IMG/VR virus record: IMGVR_UViG_3300032116_000410
Span: 1 to 44,218 of that record
Reading direction: 5' to 3' (one strand)
DNA: 44,218 nt
Source: a virus
In this document: positions 18,101 through 36,396 of the stretch, piece after piece
How the letters are laid out: every line of letters begins with the position of its first letter
Numbering within the stretch: position 1 is the stretch's first letter
Program-made: the position numbers and the translations under genes
The notes under the pieces: model-generated
What the model saw: the letters and a program-made list of their open reading frames with translations, nothing else
Databases searched by the model: none
Told to the model about the DNA's origin: nothing

Positions 18101-19541
18101 CAACATTAGCAGTTGTTAAGTCAACAACATTTGCCTTTAAATCTAATAAAGGTATTACGTTTGCATAAACTCTAGCATTAGTATAATAAAGATTTGAACC
18201 TTCTCTTAAATTACTTGTTGAAAACGTATCAATAGTTAATACAACATTAGCAATATTAGAAGTTTGTGATACATTAGATACGACCGCAGAATATGCTTCG
18301 TTTGCAATACCTGCAACAAATGATGTACCATTCCAAATTAATGTGCCGTTTGAAGTAATACCTGTAGTATCAACATCTGCGAGTACATTAATACTCATCT
18401 GTGATACATTGGATAACACCCTATTATTTGTGTAATAAAGATTCTCTGAACCTTCATTTATTATATTTGTGTTACCTGAGAATGCTACTGCAACAATATT
18501 TTCTGTTATTGCTTGAATATTTGCAGCAATGCCGCCATTTGCTTTATAATATGTTATTGTATTATCAATTGCGGTAATTGCTGCTCTTGCTCTTGCATTG
18601 GTAAAATATAACTTGCTGCCTTCTGAAATATCATCAGACGTGCCAGAGAATGTGGTTGTTAGTCCAGGATTTGAACCAACTAAAATCCATCCATTACTTG
18701 AATACATCAAGAATGCTGAATCACCAGATCTCTTTAATTCAATAGCAAGATTATTTTGAATATTACTTGCTAATACAAATTGTCCACCTAGGGTAGTTAC
18801 TAGGTTAATAATCTTTAATTGGCCATCAGCGCCTTGTGGTAAATCTAAATAGAATTTACCGCCAGGATCAATATCTACATTTGCAACAGTAAATACAACA
18901 TTTGCACCTGCAGTTCCAGGAGTACCATTATATACAACATTTGCAGTATAACGAGTACCTAATGTATTAGTTCCATCTATAGATGATGACAATGCTAAAA
19001 CATTACCGGTATTTGATGGATCACTTACATTAAATATGTATTGCGAACCTTTTACAAACTGTAACCCTGTTGGGAATGGTCTTAATCCGGTAGGGCCAAC
19101 CCAATCTTCAGGAGGATACGTGAAAACTGTACTATCTGCTTGAGATAAGTGAATCTTATCATTTTTATATCTAACGTATAATGTCTGTGTAGTAGGAGTA
19201 CCATTAGCAAATGTAAATCCTCTACCCGTGGCAGAAACATCTTCCGTATATAAGAATATTGTAGAAGGTAATATTGATCCATTCGAAATAGCATTTGCAT
19301 CCGCAGAACGGCCACCATATAAATCTGTTCTAGTTGTGGTAATACTTACCGTACCAGCAGCATTTAATGTTTGAACTGTCCCGCCGAGAAGAATGTTGCC
19401 GGCTAATGTAGGATCGGTGATTGACGAAAATAATGTACTTGCTTTTACATTATAGCTATCATTATCCTGTATAAGATAAAATAAATCATCCTTATTAACT
19501 ACATTAGCACTGGCTAATTCCGATATCTTTAAATCTGCCAT
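15132..19541 (-). CDS. Giant fibre-like virion protein, 1,469 aa
   Basis: It is the first gene of the fibre operon in reading order. The N-terminus (MADLKISELASANVVNKDDL, then FYLIQDNDSYNV) resembles the attachment domain of many phage tail fibres. Residues ~300-930 hold LYYTNARV repeats plus a duplicated block (SINVLADVDTTGITSNGTLI twice, once with VTGITAN) and one NTATLTVEDKNIVLANGA cassette. The last ~500 residues lack repeats, are rich in Ser, Gly, Thr and Asn, and end IYIRIRLNAGQTITALAILGASN, as in a beta-sandwich tip. By analogy with other fibres the tip may contact the receptor. No strong ribosome site is seen before the ATG at 19541. The next fibre gene starts right after its stop. 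Confidence 0.86.
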   Translation of the reverse strand: MADLKISELASANVVNKDDLFYLIQDNDSYNVKASTLFSSITDPTLAGNILLGGTVQTLNAAGTVSITTTRTDLYGGRSADANAISNGSILPSTIFLYTEDVSATGRGFTFANGTPTTQTLYVRYKNDKIHLSQADSTVFTYPPEDWVGPTGLRPFPTGLQFVKGSQYIFNVSDPSNTGNVLALSSSIDGTNTLGTRYTANVVYNGTPGTAGANVVFTVANVDIDPGGKFYLDLPQGADGQLKIINLVTTLGGQFVLASNIQNNLAIELKRSGDSAFLMYSSNGWILVGSNPGLTTTFSGTSDDISEGSKLYFTNARARAAITAIDNTITYYKANGGIAANIQAITENIVAVAFSGNTNIINEGSENLYYTNNRVLSNVSQMSINVLADVDTTGITSNGTLIWNGTSFVAGIANEAYSAVVSNVSQTSNIANVVLTIDTFSTSNLREGSNLYYTNARVYANVIPLLDLKANVVDLTTANVAELNNLYYTNARVISALVGQDIVTNNVIIQGDLTVEGNVVTFNTATLTVEDKNIVLANGAINSSAADGSGFNIDGAQANLKYRSTGDKFEFNKSLDVQGTLTANGWANLYAANVIGLTTANVAELTNLYYTNARVYSNVTPLLDLKANVVDLTTANVAELTNLYYTNARVYANVTERLQYLDTNIIPLISSVYDLGSDAYRFRDLWLSGATIRLGNTLLSETAGGGLSVKSASGNVNIVSDIISSNTWLGIYTANVLETEGNLYYTNARVYANVIPLLDLKANVVDLTTSNIAELTNLYYTNDRVYSNVIPLLDLKANVVDLTTANVAEGTNLYFTNARVLSNVSQMSINVLADVDVTGITANGTLIWNGTSFVAGIANEAYSAVTSNVSQTSNIANVVLTIDTFTTSNLREGSNLYFTNTRVIDALTTANVTTGNLVVSGTLTARSNVGLTLGTATQGNLISNAITMTVDTTVTNGIAQLNEILGKLVPAAPIAFPGNGYIAINSVSTFRMANFAQTDNTPSSRNVGGANIVSLVRRASSYTTTTMNDMGPGNTGTVTLYKNGSATGARTLVTGSDNGTYGDLVISDNVDYATKTGAAGGFWESFDTNASGTVSAGWNEVYINHSQGGSSNIAYWYYDSSSPGAVVFSVPVIYPTSNVYSNSSTIPHYTSATVFTMTANVKNLSGDMFPTSNTFITGSSATGFGTPSSLNYESAGVTGVPLPLTRNLYVSSGNAQISTTVNIASGFGTTTVGPSLTGQNSYISGTGSFSLGATVLYKTATISSESTMEESNIWVQGNVGSGAGYGARIINPGSTDTPVQSASALLFNSNTSTLLSYDATIVGATLKHDQTNYSVGYLPVGPNLSSGRGGAQYYTFKFSRASVGKFNIKFTGQLAGLWVALPGSAIDTTAAATNGWVDMSVAYPGSGVPSYGCALGGTVTLNTAGTQSKTCTFGSANSSDSGASGEIYIRIRLNAGQTITALAILGASN

Positions 19542-20180: not shown

Positions 20181-21218
20181 TTATTTTTTTACGGCTACGC
20201 TTGGCATGGATTCCACGCGGCGCGCCGTTCCATGGTGAATATATTTTTTACGTCCACCTTCTTGATCAGTCACAACATACTCAGCATAAGGTTGTCCGTT
20301 TTTAGTACTAAATTTATCATTCGATACTGTGTTGCCCGCCTTGCGGTGTGCAGCAATTTTATCTTCAAGTTCCATTCTAGTGAATGCTTCAATAATAACT
20401 TCTTCATAATTCTCTGCAAATGCTTGTTCTGCAATTGCAACGATTTCTTTTTGCATTGATTCTTCATCTGTTCTAACAATAGATTGAACAGCTCTTAGGA
20501 AGTCACCGAATGTTGGATTATCAGTAATCTCAATTGTAAAGTCGTTATGCTTGACAATAGTCTCTGTAACACCTTCTTCAAAAGAGGCGTTGATTGTGCC
20601 GCGAGGACCACGATCATCTTTGATTCCTGCGGCTATTAGAGCATCTGCTCTGTCACCGTAAGATTTAATATCGGGTGCAACTTTTCTAATTGCTTTTTTA
20701 ACTGTAGGAGAAGCACTGCTCCTTGCAATCTGATTCATTGTTACTTTACCAGCATGACCTACTTCATCGGGCATGCCTTCTTCAATTTCTTCTTCCTCTT
20801 TAACTGTTTTTGCTTTTTTGCCAGCACGAAGCTTTGCAAAATCTTTTCCATCAATCTTTTCATCATCAACCACATCTAATACTTGTTGATTAGGATGCAA
20901 TTGTTTTTCTTCAATTGTATCGCCTTCGGGTGTAGCATGTTCGTGCCTCACGCTGCTTTTAACTTTAACTGCCTCTGTTTGAATTTTGCGAACTTGGCCG
21001 TCAGCAAATTTAACATTGTACCAGTCAATAGTGCCATCTTCATTTGGTTTAGCATGTTGCTCTGAAATGCACTCGCCTTCGCCATATAAATTATGTTCAA
21101 CGTGTGTAGCACAAAAATGTGCACCGTCAACTTTACCTGCGTCTTCAGCTTTGCCTTCAACTTTAGCTTCTGTGATTTGTCTGATTGATTCAAACAAACT
21201 ATTTGTGATTCTTGTCAT
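20181..21218 (-). CDS. Unknown protein with N-terminal head-targeting-like peptide, 345 aa
   Basis: It starts MTRITNSLFESIRQITEAKV and so carries two (L/I)xE sites, LFE at 8-10 and ITE at 15-17, the T4 prohead-protease pattern. Residues ~30-90 (HFCATHVEHNLYGEGECISE, then DWYNVKFADG) resemble a short domain I recall from other phage head-block proteins. A Lys/Glu-rich linker follows at ~130-150, then a helical C-terminal half. An AGGAAT ribosome site precedes ATG 21218. An inner-head, core or cargo role is inferred from the leader and the neighbours. No enzyme motif is visible. Confidence 0.75.
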   Translation of the reverse strand: MTRITNSLFESIRQITEAKVEGKAEDAGKVDGAHFCATHVEHNLYGEGECISEQHAKPNEDGTIDWYNVKFADGQVRKIQTEAVKVKSSVRHEHATPEGDTIEEKQLHPNQQVLDVVDDEKIDGKDFAKLRAGKKAKTVKEEEEIEEGMPDEVGHAGKVTMNQIARSSASPTVKKAIRKVAPDIKSYGDRADALIAAGIKDDRGPRGTINASFEEGVTETIVKHNDFTIEITDNPTFGDFLRAVQSIVRTDEESMQKEIVAIAEQAFAENYEEVIIEAFTRMELEDKIAAHRKAGNTVSNDKFSTKNGQPYAEYVVTDQEGGRKKYIHHGTARRVESMPSVAVKK

Positions 21219-21274
21219 TTTTGATTCCTTTAAAATGAATTCTATTTATTATTTATTAAGTAAACCAAACCAGT

Positions 21275-21739
21275 TTACTTACGTTTTGTCGATAATCTAG
21301 ATCTTTCCAAAGCTCTTATCTTTGGCATTAACTTTACTGCAAGATTGCCTTGAATTGCCATCATATTTTTAATCTGTTGTTCCACATGATCTTTTTGTTG
21401 TGCAGATAATTGTTTCTTGCCTCTGCCACGTAAGATTCTTTTTTGTAGAAGTCTTCTTGCGGCCGCAGTTGCTCTTTTATGTAGTACATCTATTGTAGAT
21501 GTTCTTCTTAATCTCATTTTGCGAGCAGTACCGATAGCAGTTTTTCTAGATTTTAATTTTTGTGATTTCTTTAAACGACTTGTCGCTGAAATCTTTTCAT
21601 CTAATACTTGAATATCTTCTAACACGAATTCTTCAGGAGAGTATAAGTCTTCAATGTCTTCCCATGTTAAATGGTTAGCCATTTCATCGAGATCGTTCTC
21701 GCTGATTTCTTCGTTTAAAAATTCTAAAAAATTAATCAT
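21275..21739 (-). CDS. Very basic head-block protein, 154 aa
   Basis: I place the start at the ATG at 21739 because its ATGA overlaps the stop of the ferritin-like gene; an in-frame extension to 21763 would run into that gene. The N-terminus MINFLEFLNEEISEND has LNE at 8-10. Residues ~10-45 are acidic, and the remaining ~110 are extremely rich in Lys and Arg and helical (SRLKKSQKLKSRKTAIGTAR, then a long helix ending LMPKIRALERSRL). I recall relatives in T4-like cyanophage genomes as conserved unknowns. The acidic part followed by a basic part suggests an N-terminal propeptide and DNA binding inside the head; this is inference. Confidence 0.72.
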   Translation of the reverse strand: MINFLEFLNEEISENDLDEMANHLTWEDIEDLYSPEEFVLEDIQVLDEKISATSRLKKSQKLKSRKTAIGTARKMRLRRTSTIDVLHKRATAAARRLLQKRILRGRGKKQLSAQQKDHVEQQIKNMMAIQGNLAVKLMPKIRALERSRLSTKRK

Positions 21740-22173
21740 TTTAGTGTAGACTTTAACATCCAAGCATGTTTCTGATGTGCTGCAATTCTATCTTGTAAGT
21801 AATTAGATAATCCTAATTCACCAGCAGCTTCCGATAATTTATATGCACGCATCAACGATACTAATACAGTATTGTTAGAGCTCTCCAAACTTGTAAATAT
21901 ACCCATAGATGAAACCACATTTGTTTCTTCTGTAACACTTGCGTATGTAATTAAACTAGCTAATGATGTCGGGGCATATGCGCCAATTTTTCTAAGCCAC
22001 TCAGCAGTAGAATCAATTGACTCATATATTTCACTATAGATTGATTCTAAAAAAGTATGGTCTGCATAAAAACTTCTTGTTTCCACATTCCAATGTCCCG
22101 ATTGTGCTTTAAAGTATGTGAGAAACGTATCCCCCAATACTTTATTCATCGCATCAACTAATTCCTCATTCAT
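21736..22173 (-). CDS. Dps-like mini-ferritin
   Basis: The 145-residue length is near that of small Dps proteins. The ferroxidase-type pattern is visible: H27 in GHWNV, H39, E43, D54 and E58 (ESIDSTAEWLRKIG). These match the Dps arrangement of two His in the first helix region and Asp/Glu from a neighbouring subunit. Dps proteins form 12-mers, oxidise and store iron, and often protect DNA. There is no (L/I)xE leader, unlike its neighbours. It begins 1 base before the stop region of the upstream transferase-like gene and overlaps the next gene by ATGA, so it is made in the same late block. Packaging in the head or protection of phage DNA late in infection are both possible. Confidence 0.78.
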   Translation of the reverse strand: MNEELVDAMNKVLGDTFLTYFKAQSGHWNVETRSFYADHTFLESIYSEIYESIDSTAEWLRKIGAYAPTSLASLITYASVTEETNVVSSMGIFTSLESSNNTVLVSLMRAYKLSEAAGELGLSNYLQDRIAAHQKHAWMLKSTLK

Positions 22174-22174
22174 T

Positions 22175-24064
22175 TTATACGTCCTGCGCGTTAGCTTTAA
22201 CCATAGATTTATAAGATGAACTATGAGTAGCTAATTGCGCTTTATCTCTATGTACATCTTGCATTGCTGCACCTTTTTGTGCTTCAATTTTTTGTGTTTC
22301 TGGATTGGCCAAGAAAGATTTAAATGAAGCTAGACCAAGTGGTTTGCCTTCGTATCCTTGATCTGCAATTGGTATATCAATACCATGGAATACTTCTTTA
22401 TTAGGTGAAGCATTTACATCTCTGTGTACTGTAGGAGGATCAGGTGTGTATGTCTCTTGTACATTCATTGATTTTCTGAATGACGATAAAGCCTTCTTTG
22501 TAGATGGCAATTGATCTTCGTTGTCGTCAGCAACATTGTTATTGTTTGAGTCTTCCATTTTTTTATCCGTTATGATTCGTTTATTACGTTCTTTAACAAA
22601 CATAGGTTTGCCATCCGGGCCTATTCTTGCCACCATCTTAAAGTCTGATGCATTAATTCCTTCAGCCACATCGCTTGCACCAAATGTAGGAATAGTCGTT
22701 CCAATTTCATTTGCAAATGTGCCATCCTTGTGCATGGATAATTTGCTCATTTCCTGTTGATGTGTTTTAATGTATTCTAATTTATTATCAGGATATCCTA
22801 GCATATTCAATGTATCGTGTGCAATTGCAACGTACATATTAAAATCATGTGCCATTTTGTTGGTTGCAAAATTATTAGCTTTTGCTTGTTTTTCTACTCC
22901 AAGATATGCGTCAGTTGCTTTAACTGCCTGTAAAACATACTTTGGATTTAATTTAGTATTAGCAATTACTTCTTCTAACTGTATAGATGCACTTGGACAC
23001 ATATGCAGGTTAGTTGTTTTGTAACCATCAAATTCAATTTCTAAATTATGACTTGTTAGTTCTGCTAGTTGTGCTTTGGACATTAACAATGCAGGAAGTT
23101 TTCTAAGTCTATTTGTTTCTTCAACAGAAATTGAAGGGGAAAAATCTTTAAAGTTTAGTATTTTATCGCTATCTTTAATATCGTTTATCCAATGTTTTGT
23201 CGTATTACCTGATTCTAATTGTATTGTAACGTATGATGAACCTTTGTATACGATTTTTCCCACTTCGCCGCTTTTTGATTCTACAATATCACCAAGATTA
23301 AAAATCTCTTGTGCATGATATGCTTCTCTAATTGGTACACATTTACCCTGTGCTTTGCTCCAGACAGATCCTTTTTGGCATACTGCTTCCATCCCAGGAG
23401 TCATCTTGTGCATGTATTCTGTGCCTTCAGGTGTTCCCCAATCAAAACGAAATGGATTCTCAAAATCCTCTTTAACCGCTTTAATATGATTGGCAATTTC
23501 CTCTGCATGAGGATGTAATGCTTTAGGTAGACCTGATTTGAATTTCTTCATTTCGCCTGCTCTGGCATGAGCACGCATCTTAGTTCCAGACATTCCCTCT
23601 ACGCCTTCTGCGTCGGGATCTCTTTGTCCTGCTGAAACTACTTTAATTGATTTAAAATTGTAGTGGCCGTGTGCACCAGCAACATTGTTATACTTATGTA
23701 ATAATTTATGATATTCATCCACACGGTCAGACCCAGCAACCATAACCAAATGCTTATAACCTTGGCCGTGTATTTTTGCTGCAGCATGCAGAAAAGTTGG
23801 AGATTGTTTAGAAGCACCTACTACCTCAGTACCTTTTGGTGCTACGTGTTTTAAGTATCCAACTTTTGCCTTTACTGGCAATGGATCTTTGGATGTGCCT
23901 TCGGAATGGGATGCTACAATAAGAGCATCAGCATTGTGTTCTTTAGCAACTTCATGAACTTTATTAATAACCTGCTCATGACCTTTTGAAACTGGTTGAA
24001 ACCGGCCGTAGGTAAAAACTTTTGTTTTTTCCTGCGATTCTGTGATGAATTGTTTAAAGTCCAT
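22175..24064 (-). CDS. Nucleotidyltransferase-like (HIGH superfamily) multidomain protein with head-targeting-like leader
   Basis: The 629-residue protein starts MDFKQFITESQEK, with ITE at 7-9. Residues ~15-200 are a cytidylyl/adenylyltransferase domain: GRFQPVSKGH at 20-29 (the HxGH-type motif), VAGSDRVDEY near 109-118 and SGTKMRA at 159-165 (the STxxR-type motif). NMN adenylyltransferase or a related activity is likely, but the substrate cannot be told. A short SH3/KOW-like segment (FNLGDIVESKSGEVGKIVYK) lies near 260-280. The remaining ~330 residues are helical and unknown, with NPFRFDWGTPEG near 203. I recall cyanophage proteins with the same domain and an MKTF-type start. A TATAAATA late promoter lies 32 bases upstream. 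Confidence 0.8.
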   Translation of the reverse strand: MDFKQFITESQEKTKVFTYGRFQPVSKGHEQVINKVHEVAKEHNADALIVASHSEGTSKDPLPVKAKVGYLKHVAPKGTEVVGASKQSPTFLHAAAKIHGQGYKHLVMVAGSDRVDEYHKLLHKYNNVAGAHGHYNFKSIKVVSAGQRDPDAEGVEGMSGTKMRAHARAGEMKKFKSGLPKALHPHAEEIANHIKAVKEDFENPFRFDWGTPEGTEYMHKMTPGMEAVCQKGSVWSKAQGKCVPIREAYHAQEIFNLGDIVESKSGEVGKIVYKGSSYVTIQLESGNTTKHWINDIKDSDKILNFKDFSPSISVEETNRLRKLPALLMSKAQLAELTSHNLEIEFDGYKTTNLHMCPSASIQLEEVIANTKLNPKYVLQAVKATDAYLGVEKQAKANNFATNKMAHDFNMYVAIAHDTLNMLGYPDNKLEYIKTHQQEMSKLSMHKDGTFANEIGTTIPTFGASDVAEGINASDFKMVARIGPDGKPMFVKERNKRIITDKKMEDSNNNNVADDNEDQLPSTKKALSSFRKSMNVQETYTPDPPTVHRDVNASPNKEVFHGIDIPIADQGYEGKPLGLASFKSFLANPETQKIEAQKGAAMQDVHRDKAQLATHSSSYKSMVKANAQDV

Positions 24065-24095
24065 TGTTTTCCATTAGAATATAGTTGATACTTAT

Positions 24096-24103
24096 TATTT
24101 ATA
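24096..24103 (-). promoter_or_regulatory. T4-type late promoter
   Basis: TATAAATA on the minus strand lies 32 bases before ATG 24064 of the transferase-like gene; it is positioned to start the late head-block transcript. Confidence 0.75.
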
Positions 24104-24120
24104 AAATAAGGATGTTTGGT

Positions 24121-24861
24121 TTATAAGCCATATCTGGTCTTAGTAGTATTAAAAGTTGTGTTTATTTCAGTAAATGTTAATGCTCTATTATAAATTAATA
24201 CCTGTGAAATTGCACCGTTAAAGTTTCTTGTACCACCGCCTCCCGTGTCTTGTGATATAAAGAAATTTAAATTTGTAACCGTAGAATGTGAAAGAAATTG
24301 ACCGGATGATGTTAATCCGCTAGATTTTCCTAAATATGCAGTTGCCTGTGTTGATGTGACACGAATTGCCATCATGGCCCATGCGTTATTAGGTACGGAT
24401 AATCCGGTATCCCAATTATATGTCCCTTCATCATTATTCCAATGATATCCTATTGAGTTATTTCCCCCAGGAGCAAAATTCATGCCGGTAGCAGAATTTG
24501 TGGCAGACCCCATACCATCTCTACTCATTAAAATACTAGTATAATCAGCTTGTGTTTGACTGGAATTTATCCAAACAATAAAAGTTGCTGCGGATAAAGA
24601 TGATATAGTACCAGACGTTGAAACATACCTATTATTAACTAAATTAAATGTAAAATATCCTGGATCTGATGTATAACTAGGACTATTTACCAATGTTCCA
24701 TTATTTGATTGTCCGCTTAAATCATTCCAAGCTGTTCCGCTGCCAGAATAACTTGCAGCATCTAAATATAGTATCAAGCCGTCGGTAATAACACTATAAC
24801 CAACAGGGTAAGATCCTAAGACAAGGCCGTTGCCCATTTGTATTCCGTTTCCTATTTGCAT
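24121..24861 (-). CDS. LamG/concanavalin-like domain protein, 246 aa
   Basis: After a short Gly-rich start (MQIGNGIQMGNGLVLGSYP), residues ~25-240 form a LamG-3 type jelly roll: GLILYLDAASYSGSGTAWND LSGQSNNGTL (two segments), ATFIVWINSS, WAMMAIRVTS and FNGAISQVLIYNRALTFTEI. This is the usual pattern of LamG domains that bind glycans or decorate phage particles. No (L/I)xE leader is present. An AGGA-type ribosome site precedes ATG 24861. It probably decorates the capsid or tail, since it lies among late genes; the ligand is unknown. Confidence 0.82.
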   Translation of the reverse strand: MQIGNGIQMGNGLVLGSYPVGYSVITDGLILYLDAASYSGSGTAWNDLSGQSNNGTLVNSPSYTSDPGYFTFNLVNNRYVSTSGTISSLSAATFIVWINSSQTQADYTSILMSRDGMGSATNSATGMNFAPGGNNSIGYHWNNDEGTYNWDTGLSVPNNAWAMMAIRVTSTQATAYLGKSSGLTSSGQFLSHSTVTNLNFFISQDTGGGGTRNFNGAISQVLIYNRALTFTEINTTFNTTKTRYGL

Positions 24862-24869
24862 TATAAATC

Positions 24870-24959
24870 CTACGAGTAATTATTTGGTATTGGTGGTACA
24901 GGATAAGGGTGTTTTGGTTTGGGTGGTTTTTTTTTCGGCTTGTGTTTAAACCAACTCAT
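24870..24959 (-). CDS. 29-aa Lys/Pro-rich peptide
   Basis: The frame starts at ATG 24959 (MSWFKHKPKKKPPKPKHPYP, then VPPIPNNYS). A complete AGGAGGT Shine-Dalgarno at 24963-24969 (AAGGAGGTAAGATG) makes translation likely despite the size. The sequence is strongly basic and proline-rich, with no helix or membrane segment. I vaguely recall similar tiny MxWFK...KPKP peptides in T4-like phages. Its function is unknown. It lies 8 bases upstream of the LamG gene and may be coupled to it. Confidence 0.65.
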   Translation of the reverse strand: MSWFKHKPKKKPPKPKHPYPVPPIPNNYS

Positions 24960-25052
24960 CTTACCTCCTTTTTATCTAAAGTTAATCAAAATATATAGAC
25001 AGCCTATTGACATGATGTTATTATATGCTATGAGGCTCAGTGATAAGAAACA

Positions 25053-25625
25053 TTAACAGTTCCACTTTCTAAGGGCTTTGTTAATTCTTGAATCAGGGTC
25101 TCTAGCAGTCTTAGCGGATGTTAATCGCTTCTTCATTCCACCCATACGAGCACAAAAAGATTTTCTTCTATTAGCTGCTTTACTTCCGGGCTTTAATTTA
25201 GATGGTTTAGTAGTTACGGCCATTTGTAACTTTGAACCGGGATTTTCTCTACGATATGAAGCAATGCCAGCTTTGTTTAATCCGCCTTCAGGATTCTTTC
25301 CCTCTTTGCGTTGCCAAGCTGCAACTTCTAATAGCTCTTCATCCGTAACCGATTCGAGTTCTTCCCAAATTATTTCGGAATCAACATTATTTTCTTTCGC
25401 AATGTCTTCGATGACATCTTCAATTAGGTCAAAAATGTCTTCTACCGATTCGGCTGATTGTTTAAGTGCTTGTGCAGTAGGTGCACCTTTACTTCCAGGT
25501 TTACGCATACGTTCACCTGACCCAGCTTTGATTCGTTTACGTTTTGCGTGGATGTTATCCCATAATCCTCGTTTGCCTTCTTCAACAGATTGAAGTTCTT
25601 CCCTTACTTGTTTAAATGTTTTCAT
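25053..25625 (-). CDS. Basic conserved phage protein (DUF6321-like), 190 aa
   Basis: The N-terminus MKTFKQVREELQ closely resembles the T4 internal-protein targeting peptide (MKTYQEFIAE), with VRE rather than (L/I)xE. Residues ~20-55 (NIHAKRKRIKAGSGERMRKP, then GSKGAPTA) and the C-terminal ~90 residues (WQRKEGKNPEGGLNKAG, RRKSFCARMGGMKKRL, DSRINKALRKWNC) are motifs I recall as conserved in many phages; the C-terminal one corresponds, from memory, to DUF6321. The middle (~55-105) is acidic and helical. Basic flanks suggest nucleic-acid binding. The start overlaps the stop of the next gene upstream (ATGA). Function unknown. Confidence 0.78.
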   Translation of the reverse strand: MKTFKQVREELQSVEEGKRGLWDNIHAKRKRIKAGSGERMRKPGSKGAPTAQALKQSAESVEDIFDLIEDVIEDIAKENNVDSEIIWEELESVTDEELLEVAAWQRKEGKNPEGGLNKAGIASYRRENPGSKLQMAVTTKPSKLKPGSKAANRRKSFCARMGGMKKRLTSAKTARDPDSRINKALRKWNC

Positions 25626-26818
25626 GCTGATCTTTCGAAATTTGCTGCACTAAACTCTGCTCTATCCACAATCTTAGATGGTCTATTGTTTATAACTGCA
25701 ACGTGGCCTTCGGGTTTAACTGGTTTGCCTTTGATACTATGATGGAATGCGTATTCTGCTCCACCTAATGTGTGTGCCAAAACATTCTTTGCGTTTTGTA
25801 GGTGCTTATGAATATCAAAAGTAGTTTTAAATTCTTCTTTATGCGATTCAATGTGTCCGACTGCTTTAATTAATGTTGCACTTTTCGCAGCTTTTGCTTT
25901 GTCTGTTTTAACTTTGTCTACTTCTTTTTGTAACTTATTTGATACATGAGCTATATATCCTGCAACCGAGGGAGTAGATTTATTTCTAACAGTTTGATTA
26001 ATATAAGTCTTTAAATGTTCTTTGTGGTTCTCATTTTCACCTTCAATATGCGAATAATCTTTTAATTTAGTATGAGCTTCAACTGCTTTTTTCATATGAC
26101 CTTCAAACGCCTTTTGTGCATCAGGTGCATAATGTGCTGAAGATGGCCTAAAAGATGTATCAATCATATGAACATCGGAATGTTTGTTGAAATTTGATAT
26201 ATCTGCATTATATTGTGCCTTCATATCTTCTAGCTTGTTACCTTGATATGCAGTATGGACAGCTACACCAATCTTTGCTGCTTTTGCTTTTGCAGCTTCA
26301 GGTGTACCATTCTTAGCAGAATATGTAATTGTGTTTGGCTTAAAATGAACTGAACCTGCAGAAGATTCTACATCTCCGGTAGGATTTGATTTGCTCTTGA
26401 CACCTGAGTGCATAATGTCACCCTGGTATACTCCACGATTTGGAGTTACTTTTTGTAAATGATGTAGAGCAGCAGTTAACTTTGCAACCAGGCCGGGCGC
26501 GTGACCATGATTCTGTTGTATGTCAGATTCAGTATAGTTTAATTTTGGATTCTTATTGAATACAGATTTAGACGCAACGAAGAATCGGCCTGATTCCGGA
26601 TGGTGTCCAAATATAACTGAAGGCGACCCATCATACTTTGTCGATATAGATACAGATGATTTTTTGCCTTGTAGAGCACGATGTGTTTCTTGAAGGGTAT
26701 TAAATGCGTGTTTAAATCCTTCTTCGCCAGCATTGATCGGATGATCTTCAGCGTGCTCTAAATGGGTTAACTTGTCTTCATTTGCAGATTCATTTAGATA
26801 AGCGGAGAATGAAAACAT
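25622..26818 (-). CDS. KxDG nucleotidyltransferase-like protein (DUF6267-like), 398 aa
   Basis: The protein starts MFSFSAYLNESANED, with LNE at 8-10. Around residues 56-90 it reads VSISTKYDGSPSVIFG (K61-x-D63-G64), then RFFVASKSVFNKNPKLNY and, further on, GVYQGDIMHSG. K-x-D-G followed by these segments resembles the nucleotidyltransferase core of ATP-dependent ligases. From memory it matches a phage family of unknown function, DUF6267, with KWDGAP at this place. Classical motif V (ExxxxK) is not obvious, so ligase activity is not established. The C-terminal third is Lys/Ala/His-rich and helical. ATGA overlap at both ends puts it in a coupled late operon. Confidence 0.75.
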   Translation of the reverse strand: MFSFSAYLNESANEDKLTHLEHAEDHPINAGEEGFKHAFNTLQETHRALQGKKSSVSISTKYDGSPSVIFGHHPESGRFFVASKSVFNKNPKLNYTESDIQQNHGHAPGLVAKLTAALHHLQKVTPNRGVYQGDIMHSGVKSKSNPTGDVESSAGSVHFKPNTITYSAKNGTPEAAKAKAAKIGVAVHTAYQGNKLEDMKAQYNADISNFNKHSDVHMIDTSFRPSSAHYAPDAQKAFEGHMKKAVEAHTKLKDYSHIEGENENHKEHLKTYINQTVRNKSTPSVAGYIAHVSNKLQKEVDKVKTDKAKAAKSATLIKAVGHIESHKEEFKTTFDIHKHLQNAKNVLAHTLGGAEYAFHHSIKGKPVKPEGHVAVINNRPSKIVDRAEFSAANFERSA

Positions 26819-27966
26819 TATGCTGCCTTTCCGGCGCTTTTTAATGTGCTCAATGGATCGCTTTGTGAATCAAATTTGTGAGTCTGTGAAGCAAATTTCT
26901 TCTCAACACCTGTTTTTGGATCAGTGTGATAGAAATGGACACCCGTGCCGCTAGCTCTAACTGTAATATTTTTATGGTCGTTTAGAATATGCTCATAATC
27001 ATGACCCGGGTGCGATTCATGATGCTGAGTACCTTTTGCAGTTTTATACGTAGTATGTTTACGAAAAGTTCCTACTCCCGCTTGTTCTGCAGGAGTAGTG
27101 TGTGCGTGTAATACATCTCGAATATGATTAACTACGTGCTCATGGTCACCTGAATCTAATTTGTGTTGTAGTTCAACTGAATGATGATAAGCTACTGCTC
27201 TTAATAATTTTAAATTTTCTGTTTTAATCTGTTTGTGTTTTTCCGGATTTTTCTCGGCCCATTCTTTTCTAGCTGCAGGCAAATCCGCATGGTGATCTTC
27301 TTTTTTAATATCTGTTAATTCTGGGTGCATCGCTTTGATTTTCTTTTGATGCGCTTTAAATAACGTGTCGGCCATTGAACCACTAGATTGTTTACCTAGA
27401 CTAGAAGAAGGCACATTTTTACTTGAATTTTCACTAACTTTTAAGCTTCTACCGTGATATACTACTTTACCCGTTTTTGGATGTTTGGTAGTTATATAAA
27501 TGTCTGACGAATCTTCTTTTTGTGTTGCCTTAACCCCTGTTACTTTTTGGGTATCACCTTTCTTGGATGTATGTGATACACTAGTAATTATATGGCCAGG
27601 ATGTGTTTTTGCGATACTAGCGCGAATATCTGCTGCCGCGCTATCAGCTCCTGCTTTGATCTTTGCATAATCTTTTGGATGGATTTGCGCCTTTAATCTA
27701 TCGTGTGCTTGTTCAGGTGTTTCTTTTCTTTTAGTTTTTTCGTCAACCAAATGAAAATCTGGCATATGTTTGTCGTTATTTAATGCCTTGCCGGTAAGGA
27801 GTTCGTGTAAAACACCTCTGGTATTATTTGTAACCTGGCCTTCGACTTTGGGATTATCTTTTTTGACTGCTTCGTTGAGCTCTTCGATGTCAAAATCTTC
27901 AGAAGTTTCGTATAGGTCTAATACGATATCGTTAAGAGATTCTCTAAGGTTCTTAAATTGTTTCAT
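26818..27966 (-). CDS. Unknown late protein with head-targeting-like leader, 382 aa
   Basis: It starts MKQFKNLRESLNDIVLD, with LRE at 7-9. A Lys/His-rich body follows. Around residues 170-205, DSSDIYITTKHP, HGRSLKVSEN and SSSLGKQSSGSM resemble the D...(S)LK core of PD-(D/E)xK nuclease folds seen in phage proteins, with a candidate Glu in GVLHELLTGKALN near 55. This is only a weak inference. The C-terminal part has many His (THHESHPGHDYEHIL type). A TATAAATA promoter lies 33 bases upstream, and the stop touches the next gene's start. Confidence 0.7.
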   Translation of the reverse strand: MKQFKNLRESLNDIVLDLYETSEDFDIEELNEAVKKDNPKVEGQVTNNTRGVLHELLTGKALNNDKHMPDFHLVDEKTKRKETPEQAHDRLKAQIHPKDYAKIKAGADSAAADIRASIAKTHPGHIITSVSHTSKKGDTQKVTGVKATQKEDSSDIYITTKHPKTGKVVYHGRSLKVSENSSKNVPSSSLGKQSSGSMADTLFKAHQKKIKAMHPELTDIKKEDHHADLPAARKEWAEKNPEKHKQIKTENLKLLRAVAYHHSVELQHKLDSGDHEHVVNHIRDVLHAHTTPAEQAGVGTFRKHTTYKTAKGTQHHESHPGHDYEHILNDHKNITVRASGTGVHFYHTDPKTGVEKKFASQTHKFDSQSDPLSTLKSAGKAA

Positions 27967-27986
27967 TTTTCGTCCATTTAAATGAA

Positions 27987-28042
27987 TTATACTAATATTA
28001 TTTATAATAACAGAATTTACGAAACACGTGGAAAACCGGCGA
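27987..28042. repeat. 56-bp direct repeat, copy 1 (late promoter and terminator arm)
   Basis: This 56-bp segment is identical to 28486-28541. Each copy holds a TATAAATA late promoter and the 3' arm of a GC-rich terminator, so the duplicated unit is an intergenic control module. Confidence 0.9.
27999..28006 (-). promoter_or_regulatory. T4-type late promoter
   Basis: TATAAATA on the minus strand, 33 bases before ATG 27966, inside the 56-bp repeat. Confidence 0.75.
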
Positions 28043-28055
28043 TATTCGCCGGTTT
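28033..28055 (-). terminator. Rho-independent terminator
   Basis: On the minus strand AACCGGCGA pairs with TCGCCGGTT around a short loop and is followed by TTTTCC. It lies 12 bases after the stop of the 132-aa gene. Confidence 0.75.
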
Positions 28056-28066
28056 ATCTTATTATA

Positions 28067-28465
28067 TTACTTAGAAGTATGTAGTTTTTTAACGTGCTCT
28101 ATTGCGGAAGGTAAATCTTTAAGGTGTTTTTCGTGAACATGCTCATCGCCCTCATCATCGAGGGTGGCATTTTTATAATGAACAGTCCTAACAGTCGCTG
28201 TATTATCTTTATGATGACTAACAGTCGCCGAATAATTCATATTTTCGTGTTCATGGGAGTAGTGATCTTTTACTGGAGACTTATGTTTTAACTTTTGGGC
28301 ATCCAGTTGTTCTTTATCGTTGCCCACGGCATGGAAAAAATGGGGTTGTTCTCCGTGTAGGTTCTTTCCGCTAACAGTATTTAATTTTTTAACAATTTCA
28401 TCATGATTTTCGTTAAGATTTTTTCCTAACAACATACTTGCAATTGATTCGTGTAATTTTTGCAT
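28067..28465 (-). CDS. Unknown late protein, paralogue of the 28574 gene, 132 aa
   Basis: It starts MQKLHESIASMLLGKNLNEN, with LHE at 4-6. It aligns along its length with the 143-aa protein upstream: same leader, SPVKDHYSHEHE versus SPVKDHYYHQGQ, VSHHKDNTATV versus VSHHADNTATV, and KHLKDLPSAIEHVKKL versus KHFKDLPSAIAHVKTL. The His-rich centre could bind metal, but this is unproven. It has its own late promoter and terminator. The short leader ending in LHE suggests transport into the prohead and cleavage there. Function unknown. Confidence 0.72.
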   Translation of the reverse strand: MQKLHESIASMLLGKNLNENHDEIVKKLNTVSGKNLHGEQPHFFHAVGNDKEQLDAQKLKHKSPVKDHYSHEHENMNYSATVSHHKDNTATVRTVHYKNATLDDEGDEHVHEKHLKDLPSAIEHVKKLHTSK

Positions 28466-28485
28466 TTTTATTTCCTAGAATATAG

Positions 28486-28541
28486 TTATACTAATATTAT
28501 TTATAATAACAGAATTTACGAAACACGTGGAAAACCGGCGA
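28486..28541. repeat. 56-bp direct repeat, copy 2
   Basis: Identical to 27987-28042 at a distance of 499 bp. The paralogous genes and this spacer were probably duplicated together, and the spacer has stayed identical while the proteins diverged. Confidence 0.9.
28498..28505 (-). promoter_or_regulatory. T4-type late promoter
   Basis: TATAAATA on the minus strand, 33 bases before ATG 28465. Confidence 0.75.
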
Positions 28542-28557
28542 ATTGCTCCGCCGGTTT
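28532..28557 (-). terminator. Rho-independent terminator
   Basis: On the minus strand AACCGGCG pairs with CGCCGGTT, followed by TTCC; the loop differs from that of the other copy. It ends the 143-aa gene. Confidence 0.75.
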
Positions 28558-28573
28558 GTTGTTTTATTAGATG

Positions 28574-29005
28574 TTATTCTGGCGTTTTTAGAGTTTTAAC
28601 GTGCGCTATTGCAGACGGTAAATCTTTAAAATGCTTTTCCCGGTGTTTATCGGAAACATTATAGTCTTGTTGTCTATCAGACCATTTTTGACGATATGAA
28701 GAATGTTGAACAGTTGCTGTATTATCAGCATGGTGACTTACTGTAATATGATGTTCATGTTGATCTTCTGCGCCACCTGAGGCAAATTGACCTTGGTGAT
28801 AATAATGATCTTTTACTGGAGATGAATGAGCAGGAGAACCGCTAGGCGATTCTTTATTTTCCCCAGATCCATGTGTAAATGCAGGAGTTTCACCGCCAAT
28901 ATCTGGACCTGCCGCAGAATTTAAATGCTTAATAACTTCATTATGATTCTCATTAATAATTTTATTTAACAACATACCTGCGATTGACTCGTGCAAAGTT
29001 CTCAT
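28574..29005 (-). CDS. Unknown late protein, paralogue of the 28067 gene, 143 aa
   Basis: It starts MRTLHESIAGMLLNKIINEN, with LHE at 4-6. Compared with its paralogue it has an extra Gly/Ser-rich stretch (SGENKESPSGSPAHSSP) and more charged residues near the end. The central His-rich motif HEHHITVSHHADNTATV is kept. A GGAG ribosome site lies before ATG 29005 and a TATAAATA promoter 28 bases upstream. Late expression and the leader point to a head-packaged protein; no known domain is recognised. Confidence 0.72.
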   Translation of the reverse strand: MRTLHESIAGMLLNKIINENHNEVIKHLNSAAGPDIGGETPAFTHGSGENKESPSGSPAHSSPVKDHYYHQGQFASGGAEDQHEHHITVSHHADNTATVQHSSYRQKWSDRQQDYNVSDKHREKHFKDLPSAIAHVKTLKTPE

Positions 29006-29032: not shown

Positions 29033-29040
29033 TATTTATA
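29033..29040 (-). promoter_or_regulatory. T4-type late promoter
   Basis: TATAAATA on the minus strand, 28 bases before ATG 29005. It is the rightmost late promoter of the head block. Confidence 0.72.
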
Positions 29041-34054: not shown

Positions 34055-35221
34055 CTATAGATATTTTTTAAGATTGTCTTTAAGGCCAAGGCCTTCAATG
34101 TTTTGATGAAAAGAAGATGCTGTCCATGTTGAATATGAGTCTATAAACGGCGCGTAAAACAGATTCCGATGTTCTTCCTGATAAGATAAATCTATAATAT
34201 TTTTAAATTTATCAGTAGTCATTGCCTTTTCTATGCAATCAGTTCCTCGTTTTTCTGCGAAATCCCAAAAATTAGAATTAAATTTTGATCCTGCCGAATA
34301 ATGCAGCATGATCATTGTTTCTGTTTCGATAATAAAATTTAAATATTCTTTATTTGCATCTTCAGGTGAAACTATGCCGTTCCAAACATCAAATGCTTTC
34401 CGTTGAATATTTTCTATAATACCAATAGAGGTTGCCTCTAATGGTTCAAGGAAGAATGAAGCGTTTCCATTATAAACTACTCTCTTTGAATAATTATTTT
34501 TATGGTAATAATTGTTAAAAGAGAATGATGACGTAGTATCACTAGGTATCAGATTGTTGGTTTGTATTATCTTTAATGCGTCTTCCTTGATTTCATCTAA
34601 AGAACTTATACTATTGTTGTACATATACCCAATAGAACATCTATTCATAAGAGGAATGCCAAAATACCATCCGTGTTTTTCCGCATTGCTAAGAGTATAC
34701 TGAAATTTTGGAGAATCCCAAAAACACTGCGTTACATATACTGAATTTACAGGTATATATTCTGCAGTATAATAATTACTATAATCTGCAGGTTTGCCAG
34801 AACAATCCATAATAAAATCTGCATCTATAGAATCATACGAATCTACGTGTTTATCTATAATCGTAACTCTGCGGTTATTCTCAAGATGGTTGAAAATATA
34901 TTGTTGTAATTTAACTGCGTTAAAGTGATAACCTACCTGCCCTGGATAAAAATGGTGGAAAAATGAACTATGTTTGTTCCCCCAATTTTCTTTATATATT
35001 CCAGTTTTTAAAGTACCGTCTACATTTAATAAATCAAATGTATTAAAATTTGCGTTATTATATAGCTGCGCTGGAAATCCCGGTAAGGATCCTTCTCCTA
35101 CGGCTTGTGGTTTTACACCGGAGTCATAATAAAAATCTATTACCCAGTCAGTGTGTCTAATAAAATGTAATGCAGACAAAACACCGGCAGTCCCTTTTCC
35201 TATAATTGCTAATTTTTTCAT
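34055..35221 (-). CDS. Flavin-dependent halogenase-like protein, copy 2
   Basis: The 388-residue protein has the FAD-binding GxGxxG (GKGTAG at 8-13), VGEGSLP at 41-47, LKTGIYKENW with K72 where the catalytic Lys of tryptophan halogenases lies, GWYFGIPL at 184-191 (the WxWxIP motif with Phe for the second Trp) and FLEPLEATS at 257-265. This is the Trp_halogenase family. A cyanophage member (VirX1) was shown by others to halogenate many small molecules. Here the substrate is unknown; these enzymes need a flavin reductase, not seen nearby. The start overlaps the stop of the first copy by ATGA. Confidence 0.87.
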   Translation of the reverse strand: MKKLAIIGKGTAGVLSALHFIRHTDWVIDFYYDSGVKPQAVGEGSLPGFPAQLYNNANFNTFDLLNVDGTLKTGIYKENWGNKHSSFFHHFYPGQVGYHFNAVKLQQYIFNHLENNRRVTIIDKHVDSYDSIDADFIMDCSGKPADYSNYYTAEYIPVNSVYVTQCFWDSPKFQYTLSNAEKHGWYFGIPLMNRCSIGYMYNNSISSLDEIKEDALKIIQTNNLIPSDTTSSFSFNNYYHKNNYSKRVVYNGNASFFLEPLEATSIGIIENIQRKAFDVWNGIVSPEDANKEYLNFIIETETMIMLHYSAGSKFNSNFWDFAEKRGTDCIEKAMTTDKFKNIIDLSYQEEHRNLFYAPFIDSYSTWTASSFHQNIEGLGLKDNLKKYL

Positions 35222-36396
35222 ACATTAAATTCTTTGCATAGTTTATCAAAAATACCTAAATTATAAATGTGATCTTTCATAGAAGGCTTGATTGGCCACA
35301 CTGAAAACGTAGTATTTTTTAGAGTTCTAATATCTAATGAGTCTGACATTTTAACCATTTTTAATGTATCTATAAAGTGCTCTTTATAATCGGATGTATG
35401 AATTGATTTAATTTTGTTTTCGCCTCGCTTAATAGCAAAATCCCAAAACGGCGTATCGAATTTAGAACCCGCATAATAGTGCAGCATTAAAAATGTTTCT
35501 ATTTTTTCAAAATGCAACGTATAATCGTTATTTACCTTTTCAACATCTTTATCATCTACCCAAATATCATACGCAAATCGTTGAACCATATCCATAGAAG
35601 ATATAGATGTTGCTTCTAAAGGTTCTAAAAAGAATGAGGCGTTGCCTCCGTACCCAACTCGTTTATCAAAATTCTTTTTTCTGTAATAATTTTTAAATTG
35701 TAGATGGCTTGTTCTGTCAGGAACAAGATTTAATCCTTCAAGTATAACCGGAACATCTTTTTTAACTTCATCTAATGATGATACGTTTGTATTATACAAA
35801 TAACCAATAGCGCATCTATTAGTTAATGGTATTCCAAATACCCAGCCGTGAGGCATTGCTATTGCTTCCGTGTGGGTGAATCTTGCGTTTTCCCAGTTAC
35901 ATTGTGTAACATATGCAGCATTAACGGGAATGTAATCAGATATTGTATAATCGGTATAATCTTTTGGGGCTCCGGAGCAATCAAAAATATGATCGCTATC
36001 AATGGCATCATGGGCAACATTTTTATGAATAATCTTAACTCTGGGCTGTTCTCCCATATAACTAATAATAAAATTTTGAAGATCTACTGCATTAAAATGA
36101 ATTGCGTGTCCCGATACGCTTCCAAATACATGCATGAAATCTTTGCCAAATTTTCCCCAATTAGTTTTATTGACACCCATTTTAACAGTGCCATTTAATT
36201 TAAGTAAATCGGTGTATTTAAAATCAATGTTTTGGTCTAATAGTGTGGGTAATGCAAGATCGGACCCTTCCCCCACAGCTTGAGGATTAATATTAGGATC
36301 AAACACCCAATCAATTTCCCAATCAGTCCATCTTAAAAAATGAGTAACTGCTACACACCCTGCGGTACCTCTGCCAATAATTGTTATTTTTTTCAT
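35218..36396 (-). CDS. Flavin-dependent halogenase-like protein, copy 1
   Basis: The 392 residues match the downstream copy along their length. GRGTAG at 8-13, VGEGSDLALP at 41-50, VKMGVNKTNW with K72, GWVFGIPL at 184-191 and FLEPLEATS at 257-265 are all present. As in the other copy, the second Trp of WxWxIP is Phe. The two differ mainly after ~residue 330, where substrate contacts would lie, so they may act on different positions or compounds. It starts 3 bases after the stop of the RNase H-like gene. Tandem copies in one operon suggest duplication followed by divergence. Confidence 0.87.
   Translation of the reverse strand: MKKITIIGRGTAGCVAVTHFLRWTDWEIDWVFDPNINPQAVGEGSDLALPTLLDQNIDFKYTDLLKLNGTVKMGVNKTNWGKFGKDFMHVFGSVSGHAIHFNAVDLQNFIISYMGEQPRVKIIHKNVAHDAIDSDHIFDCSGAPKDYTDYTISDYIPVNAAYVTQCNWENARFTHTEAIAMPHGWVFGIPLTNRCAIGYLYNTNVSSLDEVKKDVPVILEGLNLVPDRTSHLQFKNYYRKKNFDKRVGYGGNASFFLEPLEATSISSMDMVQRFAYDIWVDDKDVEKVNNDYTLHFEKIETFLMLHYYAGSKFDTPFWDFAIKRGENKIKSIHTSDYKEHFIDTLKMVKMSDSLDIRTLKNTTFSVWPIKPSMKDHIYNLGIFDKLCKEFNV

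Follow-up and report, generated by a model that had tools for sequence, protein, structure and literature searches.

The leader block of a T4-like phage, at 20181–29005 of the 44-kb IMG/VR fragment analysed here (the window), encodes a set of proteins whose short N-terminal leaders are probably capsid-targeting sequences of the T4 internal-protein type. The first-pass annotation had proposed such leaders across the set. The proposal holds strongly for a cytidylyltransferase-like protein, a DUF6267 protein and the basic protein 21275 (genes are named by their left coordinate), and it holds at the family level for 25053 and 26818. For 20181, which carries LFD in one relative, and for the LHES paralogues 28067 and 28574, it is weak or ambiguous. 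The block is read on the minus strand in the order 28574, 28067, 26818, 25622, 25053, 24121, 22175, 21736, 21275, 20181, with 24 tRNA genes to its right. Two of its genes have no leader, one encoding a Dps/ferritin-like protein (21736–22173), which occupies the same place in relatives, and one a LamG-like protein (24121–24861). Elsewhere in the window, positions 1–20125 hold very long repetitive tail-fibre-like genes made of NLYYTNARVYANV-type repeats, and a pair of adjoining proteins at 34055–36396 look by eye like flavin-dependent halogenases. The features of the block are as follows; a stroke is set after the Glu of each leader.

21189–21218, minus strand: weak, possible leader MTRITNSLFE/S of the 345-aa protein encoded by gene 20181–21218
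21275–21739, minus strand: basic 154-aa protein, from the open reading frame list; relatives in viral contigs
21710–21739, minus strand: leader MINFLEFLNE/E of the basic 154-aa protein (start ATG 21739)
22175–24064, minus strand: cytidylyltransferase/NMNAT-like protein, 629 aa (PF01467, PHROG 3041, PHROG 395)
24038–24064, minus strand: leader MDFKQFITE/S of the cytidylyltransferase/NMNAT-like protein; predicted cut before Ser10
24096–24103, minus strand: TATAAATA late-promoter-type box before the cytidylyltransferase gene 22175
25053–25625, minus strand: basic DUF6321 protein, 190 aa (PF19846, E=5.8e-19)
25599–25625, minus strand: leader MKTFKQVRE/E of the DUF6321 protein, degenerate by comparison with relatives
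25622–26818, minus strand: DUF6267 protein, 398 aa, ligase-like by motif (Pfam PF19782, E=3.7e-95)
26789–26818, minus strand: leader MFSFSAYLNE/S of the DUF6267 protein; predicted cut before Ser11
26818–27966, minus strand: 382-aa protein, from the open reading frame list
27940–27966, minus strand: degenerate leader MKQFKNLRE/S of the 382-aa protein
27999–28006, minus strand: TATAAATA box before gene 26818–27966
28448–28465, minus strand: weak, possible short leader MQKLHE/S of gene 28067–28465
28498–28505, minus strand: TATAAATA box before gene 28067–28465
28988–29005, minus strand: weak, possible short leader MRTLHE/S of the paralogue, gene 28574–29005
29033–29040, minus strand: TATAAATA box before gene 28574–29005

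All eight leaders described earlier, (L/I)xE on seven genes and VRE on an eighth, were found in the sequence. Taken as a loose pattern ([LI]xE with the Glu at residue 4–13), the motif occurs near the N-terminus of 7/10 block genes versus 3/34 genes elsewhere in the window (Fisher p=3e-4). The same pattern is matched by 7–11% of internal windows, a chance rate against which the block count gives a binomial p=4e-6, or 3.5e-5 when the two paralogues are merged. In T4 IPIII, targeting depends on residues 4 and 7 and processing on residues 8 and 10; the two functions can be separated, and targeting tolerates Asp at position 10 (PMC9026906). A strict pattern built on these T4-mapped positions (aromatic at 4 and 7, hydrophobic at 8, Glu at 10) is passed by three window genes only, 21275, 22175 and 25622, and the eight leaders are therefore unequal. 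MINFLEFLNE, MDFKQFITE and MFSFSAYLNE place F, F/Y, L/I and E at the T4-mapped positions 4, 7, 8 and 10, MDFKQFITE being one residue shorter so that its residues are shifted by one.

Run on T4 itself, the strict pattern gives 11 matches among 258 ORFs, including IPII, IPIII, Alt and gp24. A position weight matrix trained on the DUF6267 leaders was over-fitted and ranked T4 IPII and IPIII low, and the T4-position pattern was used instead. UvsX N-termini and some short ORFs also fit and were set aside as false positives. Two further ORFs of T4 GT7 (KJ477686) fit the pattern and may be undescribed internal proteins: gene 61.1 (18952–19116, minus strand, MKTFKEFIKE/D) and a small ORF (114222–114452, plus strand, MLLEFKQFLYE/A).

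Conservation of the leader among relatives is borne out for the DUF6267 and cytidylyltransferase proteins, but the Glu is not invariant in the 26818 family and only partly so in that of 21275. Among 18 DUF6267 sequences (34–80% identity to the window protein) the leader residue E10 is one of 26 invariant columns. Leader residues F3 and E9 are invariant in 8 cytidylyltransferase sequences (26–84% identity), and the leader is missing from some other relatives of this protein. In five close relatives of 21275, F4 and F7 are invariant, with the Glu mostly kept and lost in some family members; the start of the window gene is ATG 21739, ATGA-coupled to the upstream stop, and initiation at a TTG at 21763 would yield a longer protein. 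The window's DUF6321 protein has a degenerate leader, whose counterparts are canonical in some relatives (MKTYKQFVTE, MKNFKEFIDE, MIRYKDFISE) and lost in others. Similarly, the degenerate leader of 26818 has a canonical counterpart, MKSFKSFLTE, in L156 (62% identity) and is lost in L003 and L036; Pfam and PHROG searches with this 382-aa protein gave no family above the cut-off. In 20181 the aromatic pair is absent, and LFE is found in most relatives with LFD in L034. In 28067 and 28574, L4 and E6 are invariant in 7 sequences and lie in a conserved LHESIA segment. A second site in 28067, LNE, ends at residue 19, and [LI]NE is found near residue 19 in most of these sequences. The structural model of 28067 is mediocre, with low pLDDT for residues 1–18 and the rest too poor to interpret.

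The leader is a detachable, disordered module, since some homologues start where the leader would end and unrelated families carry it. By body clustering it is found on more than 10 unrelated protein families. The Glu is at residue 10 in 53/66 distinct leaders, although residues 8–12 were permitted; the residues fixed by the search pattern carry no evidential weight in this count. An AlphaFold2 model of the DUF6267 protein (mean pLDDT 88.6) has residues 1–15 below pLDDT 50, i.e. disordered. DUF6267 homologues of S-PM2, P-HM2, P-RSM6, S-CRM01 and S-SZBM1 are leaderless and start at the body (MAKNTHLEHLEDD and similar), and in Melnitz and HTVC008M the leader is placed ahead of that same body start. 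The same cluster of HTVC008M also encodes a kinase of the zeta-toxin type and a phosphatase of the NT5C type. Among leader-bearing proteins of relatives (L025:5886-6551, L035:11095-11868, L013:8202-8837, L036:11157-11570), some resemble by eye HAD phosphatases (DMDETLF, DIDDTLL) or zinc peptidases (AHEMVHY); Pfam gave no match above the cut-off for those tested.

Neither an S77 (gp21-type) protease nor a capsid gene is present in the window's record, which is a 44-kb fragment. Five near-complete relatives encode the S77 protease. The capsid proteins of G001, G002, S-CREM2 and S-SZBM1 contain LFE/A or LTE/A aligned with FLTE/A of T4 gp23, and the specificity of the protease is therefore expected to be the same as in T4.

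Late promoters had been noted ahead of several leader genes, and the boxes before 22175, 26818, 28067 and 28574 confirm this. On the minus strand, 6/9 TATAAATA boxes begin 28–40 nt ahead of a start codon, where 0.4 would be expected to fall within 60 nt. Their total over the whole window is at chance level, with no enrichment, and the box is thus informative by position only. In the relative G001, boxes stand at nearly equal distances before the 22175 homologue and the gene in the 26818 position, and one also precedes the scaffold gene.

The published virion data of three related cyanophages, S-CREM2 (PMC10665884, Table 3), S-SZBM1 (PMC9146016) and S-SCSM1 (annotation of MK867354), associate the leader with the particle. 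In S-CREM2 the strict leader is found on 5/219 annotated proteins:

gp6, SAM hydrolase: MKDFDSFLEE
gp13: MKDLHSFLTE
gp14, kinase: MKRFDAFLTE
gp136: MQTFSMFFSE
gp154, cytidylyltransferase: MKNFSSFLTE

The virion contains all five of these proteins, and 0/167 undetected proteins carry the leader (p=6.5e-4). In S-SZBM1 the cytidylyltransferase (MRFRQFIIE/A) is in the virion and two small proteins with a leader, of 105 and 165 aa, are undetected; in S-SCSM1 the NMNAT (MKSFLQFLKE/A) is in the virion and a small leader protein of 106 aa lacks the virion flag. Leader-bearing homologues of the cytidylyltransferase are thus detected in 3/3 published cyanophage proteomes. Pooled over the three phages, leader proteins are detected in 7/10 cases with 1.9 expected (p=5e-4), and in S-SZBM1 and S-SCSM1 alone in 2/5 (p=0.16); these virion p-values are partly post hoc because the strict pattern was tightened after S-CREM2 had been seen. 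None of the leaderless DUF6267 homologues of the three phages is reported in virions. S-SZBM1_139 and SSCSM1_90 are virion proteins of the same cluster without such a leader. The serine/threonine kinase of S-CRM01 starts MISFDQFLSE, and a kinase of this phage is reported in virions according to the citation in PMC10665884. The virion-associated NMNAT/cytidylyltransferases and kinases of S-CREM2, S-SZBM1, S-SCSM1 and S-CRM01 share neighbourhood and leader with the window's block, and their cytidylyltransferase is homologous to that of the window; the published reports leave the leader unmentioned and the route into the virion open.

The S-CREM2 virion also contains gp12, a Cas9-annotated protein in which FASFMAE/A ends at residue 25, with a matching site in four related phages. 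A cassette of a Cas9-annotated protein, a small protein, a kinase and another small protein is seen at L074:7704-13331 of S-CREM2 (also in L091, L092, L093 and L094). All four cassette proteins are in the S-CREM2 virion, and the Cas9-annotated one has RWSxW conserved at its start and a site resembling the leader around residue 25.

Two of the strongly tagged proteins resemble enzymes. The 22175 protein matches PHROG 3041 (E=7e-62) and PHROG 395 (E=3e-50), and PF01467 just over the cut-off. The DUF6267 protein had been described as a KxDG ligase-like cargo, and its motifs make this plausible. K61, D63 and G64 (KxDG) are invariant in the 18 sequences, as is PEG369-371, and the C-terminal PEGxV...K...R together with KxDG resembles motifs I, IV and V of covalent nucleotidyltransferases (DNA/RNA ligases). 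Searches of the PDB by sequence and by predicted fold gave nothing significant, the fold search having no match at E<=0.001, and ligases appear only among weak fold matches (E 0.8–2.5). By motif only, it is plausibly a ligase-like enzyme, and the motifs suggest a covalent nucleotidyltransferase, e.g. an RNA ligase. Its best viral fold matches include a 591-aa S-PM2 protein named cytidyltransferase-like, and a single PHROG profile spans both the DUF6267 and cytidylyltransferase domains; the two proteins are therefore probably linked in function.

In the proposed mechanism the tagged proteins (the cytidylyltransferase-like protein, the DUF6267 protein and basic 21275, and in relatives also the DUF6321 and 26818 families) would be made late. 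The aromatics near positions 4 and 7 would bind the prohead core, and the protein would become enclosed within the prohead. There a gp21-type S77 protease would cleave behind the Glu, around position 10, to free the mature protein before DNA packaging, and the freed protein would enter the next host together with the DNA. Binding to the core, the cut itself, ejection and any activity inside the host are inferred steps. The earlier suggestion that the phage injects enzymes fits the published virion proteomes of relatives, with cleavage and injection as putative steps; tagged enzymes in related cyanophage particles suggest that host cells receive enzymes from the very start of infection.

Other explanations of the leaders were weighed. 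It is hardly credible that they are ordinary N-termini, for while [LI]xE alone is common, its enrichment in the block and its invariance across relatives go against chance. An unrelated N-terminal helix, serving for example to bind a membrane or a partner in the infected cell, with virion detection due to contamination by abundant proteins, is very unlikely. The S-CREM2 authors did state that co-purification cannot be excluded (PMC10665884), and the UvsX N-termini show that the pattern can be matched by other proteins. However, the leader is associated with detection in virions, the leaderless DUF6267 homologues are undetected in all three phages, and the T4-mapped positions and spacing are matched exactly. 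Alternatively, the leader could dock proteins to the prohead core and stay uncut, the Glu being part of the docking surface. This would agree with the separable targeting and processing of T4 and with the 21275 family, where F4 and F7 outlast the Glu in some members; the invariant Glu of the DUF6267 and cytidylyltransferase leaders and the matching cut site of the capsid protein make it unlikely.

A further possibility, which we regard as evenly balanced, is that the block is cargo only in part, the sites of 20181, 28067 and 28574 being chance or different [LI]xE sites of proteins that stay outside the capsid. The aromatic pair is missing from all three, conservation in the paralogues extends over the longer unit LHESIA, and the LFD of one 20181 relative points the same way. 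On the other hand, these genes adjoin leader genes and two of them have the same promoter boxes, and the low-confidence residues 1–18 of 28067, followed by the second [LI]NE near residue 19, recall the 19-residue propeptide of IPI. A partial cargo is compatible with capsid targeting of the other block genes.

As in T4 IPI, IPII, IPIII and Alt (MKTYQEFIAE), the capsid-targeting leader proposed here has 10 residues, with aromatics at 4 and 7, L/I at 8 and Glu at 10. It is likewise common to otherwise unrelated proteins and accompanied by late promoters and, in relatives, by a gp21-type protease. The cargo has no detectable homologues among the internal proteins of T4, and in contrast to the small restriction inhibitors of T4 it includes enzymes (the cytidylyltransferase/NMNAT-like and DUF6267 proteins, and in cyanophages a kinase and a SAM hydrolase), their cleavage and injection being presumed here. 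The ejection proteins of the giant phages SPN3US and phiKZ offer a parallel, in that a prohead protease trims these head proteins after a Glu and they are delivered into the host; their propeptides are longer and the protease belongs to a different subgroup, a distinction drawn from published descriptions, not from sequence. According to a review of cyanomyoviruses, alt, gp67, gp68 and gp24 are absent from them (PMC2984593). Literature searches, which for the most part covered journals outside subscription, turned up no earlier description of T4-type capsid targeting in the related cyanophages. The tag itself is that of T4 and already well known; what is new is the group of viruses and a cargo made up of enzymes.

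Cyanophage virion studies have repeatedly reported enzymes that have no evident structural role and for which contamination could not be excluded. The leader would be their address label. It makes packaging testable by residue and provides a sequence rule to predict injected proteins in abundant aquatic phages. In T4 the three internal proteins are injected and inhibit type IV restriction (PMC12373910), and the tagged set of aquatic phages is by this precedent a candidate set of early counter-defence or host-takeover proteins. For Kyanoviridae and related aquatic T4-like phages as a whole, there is about an equal chance for and against a modular T4-type leader that delivers a variable complement of enzymes (cytidylyltransferase/NMNAT, ligase-like DUF6267, kinase, SAM hydrolase, Cas9-annotated protein) at genome entry, as a first-wave kit for host takeover, anti-defence or nucleic-acid repair. 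As a guess, the kit delivered at entry might be one for nucleic-acid repair or NAD-related functions.
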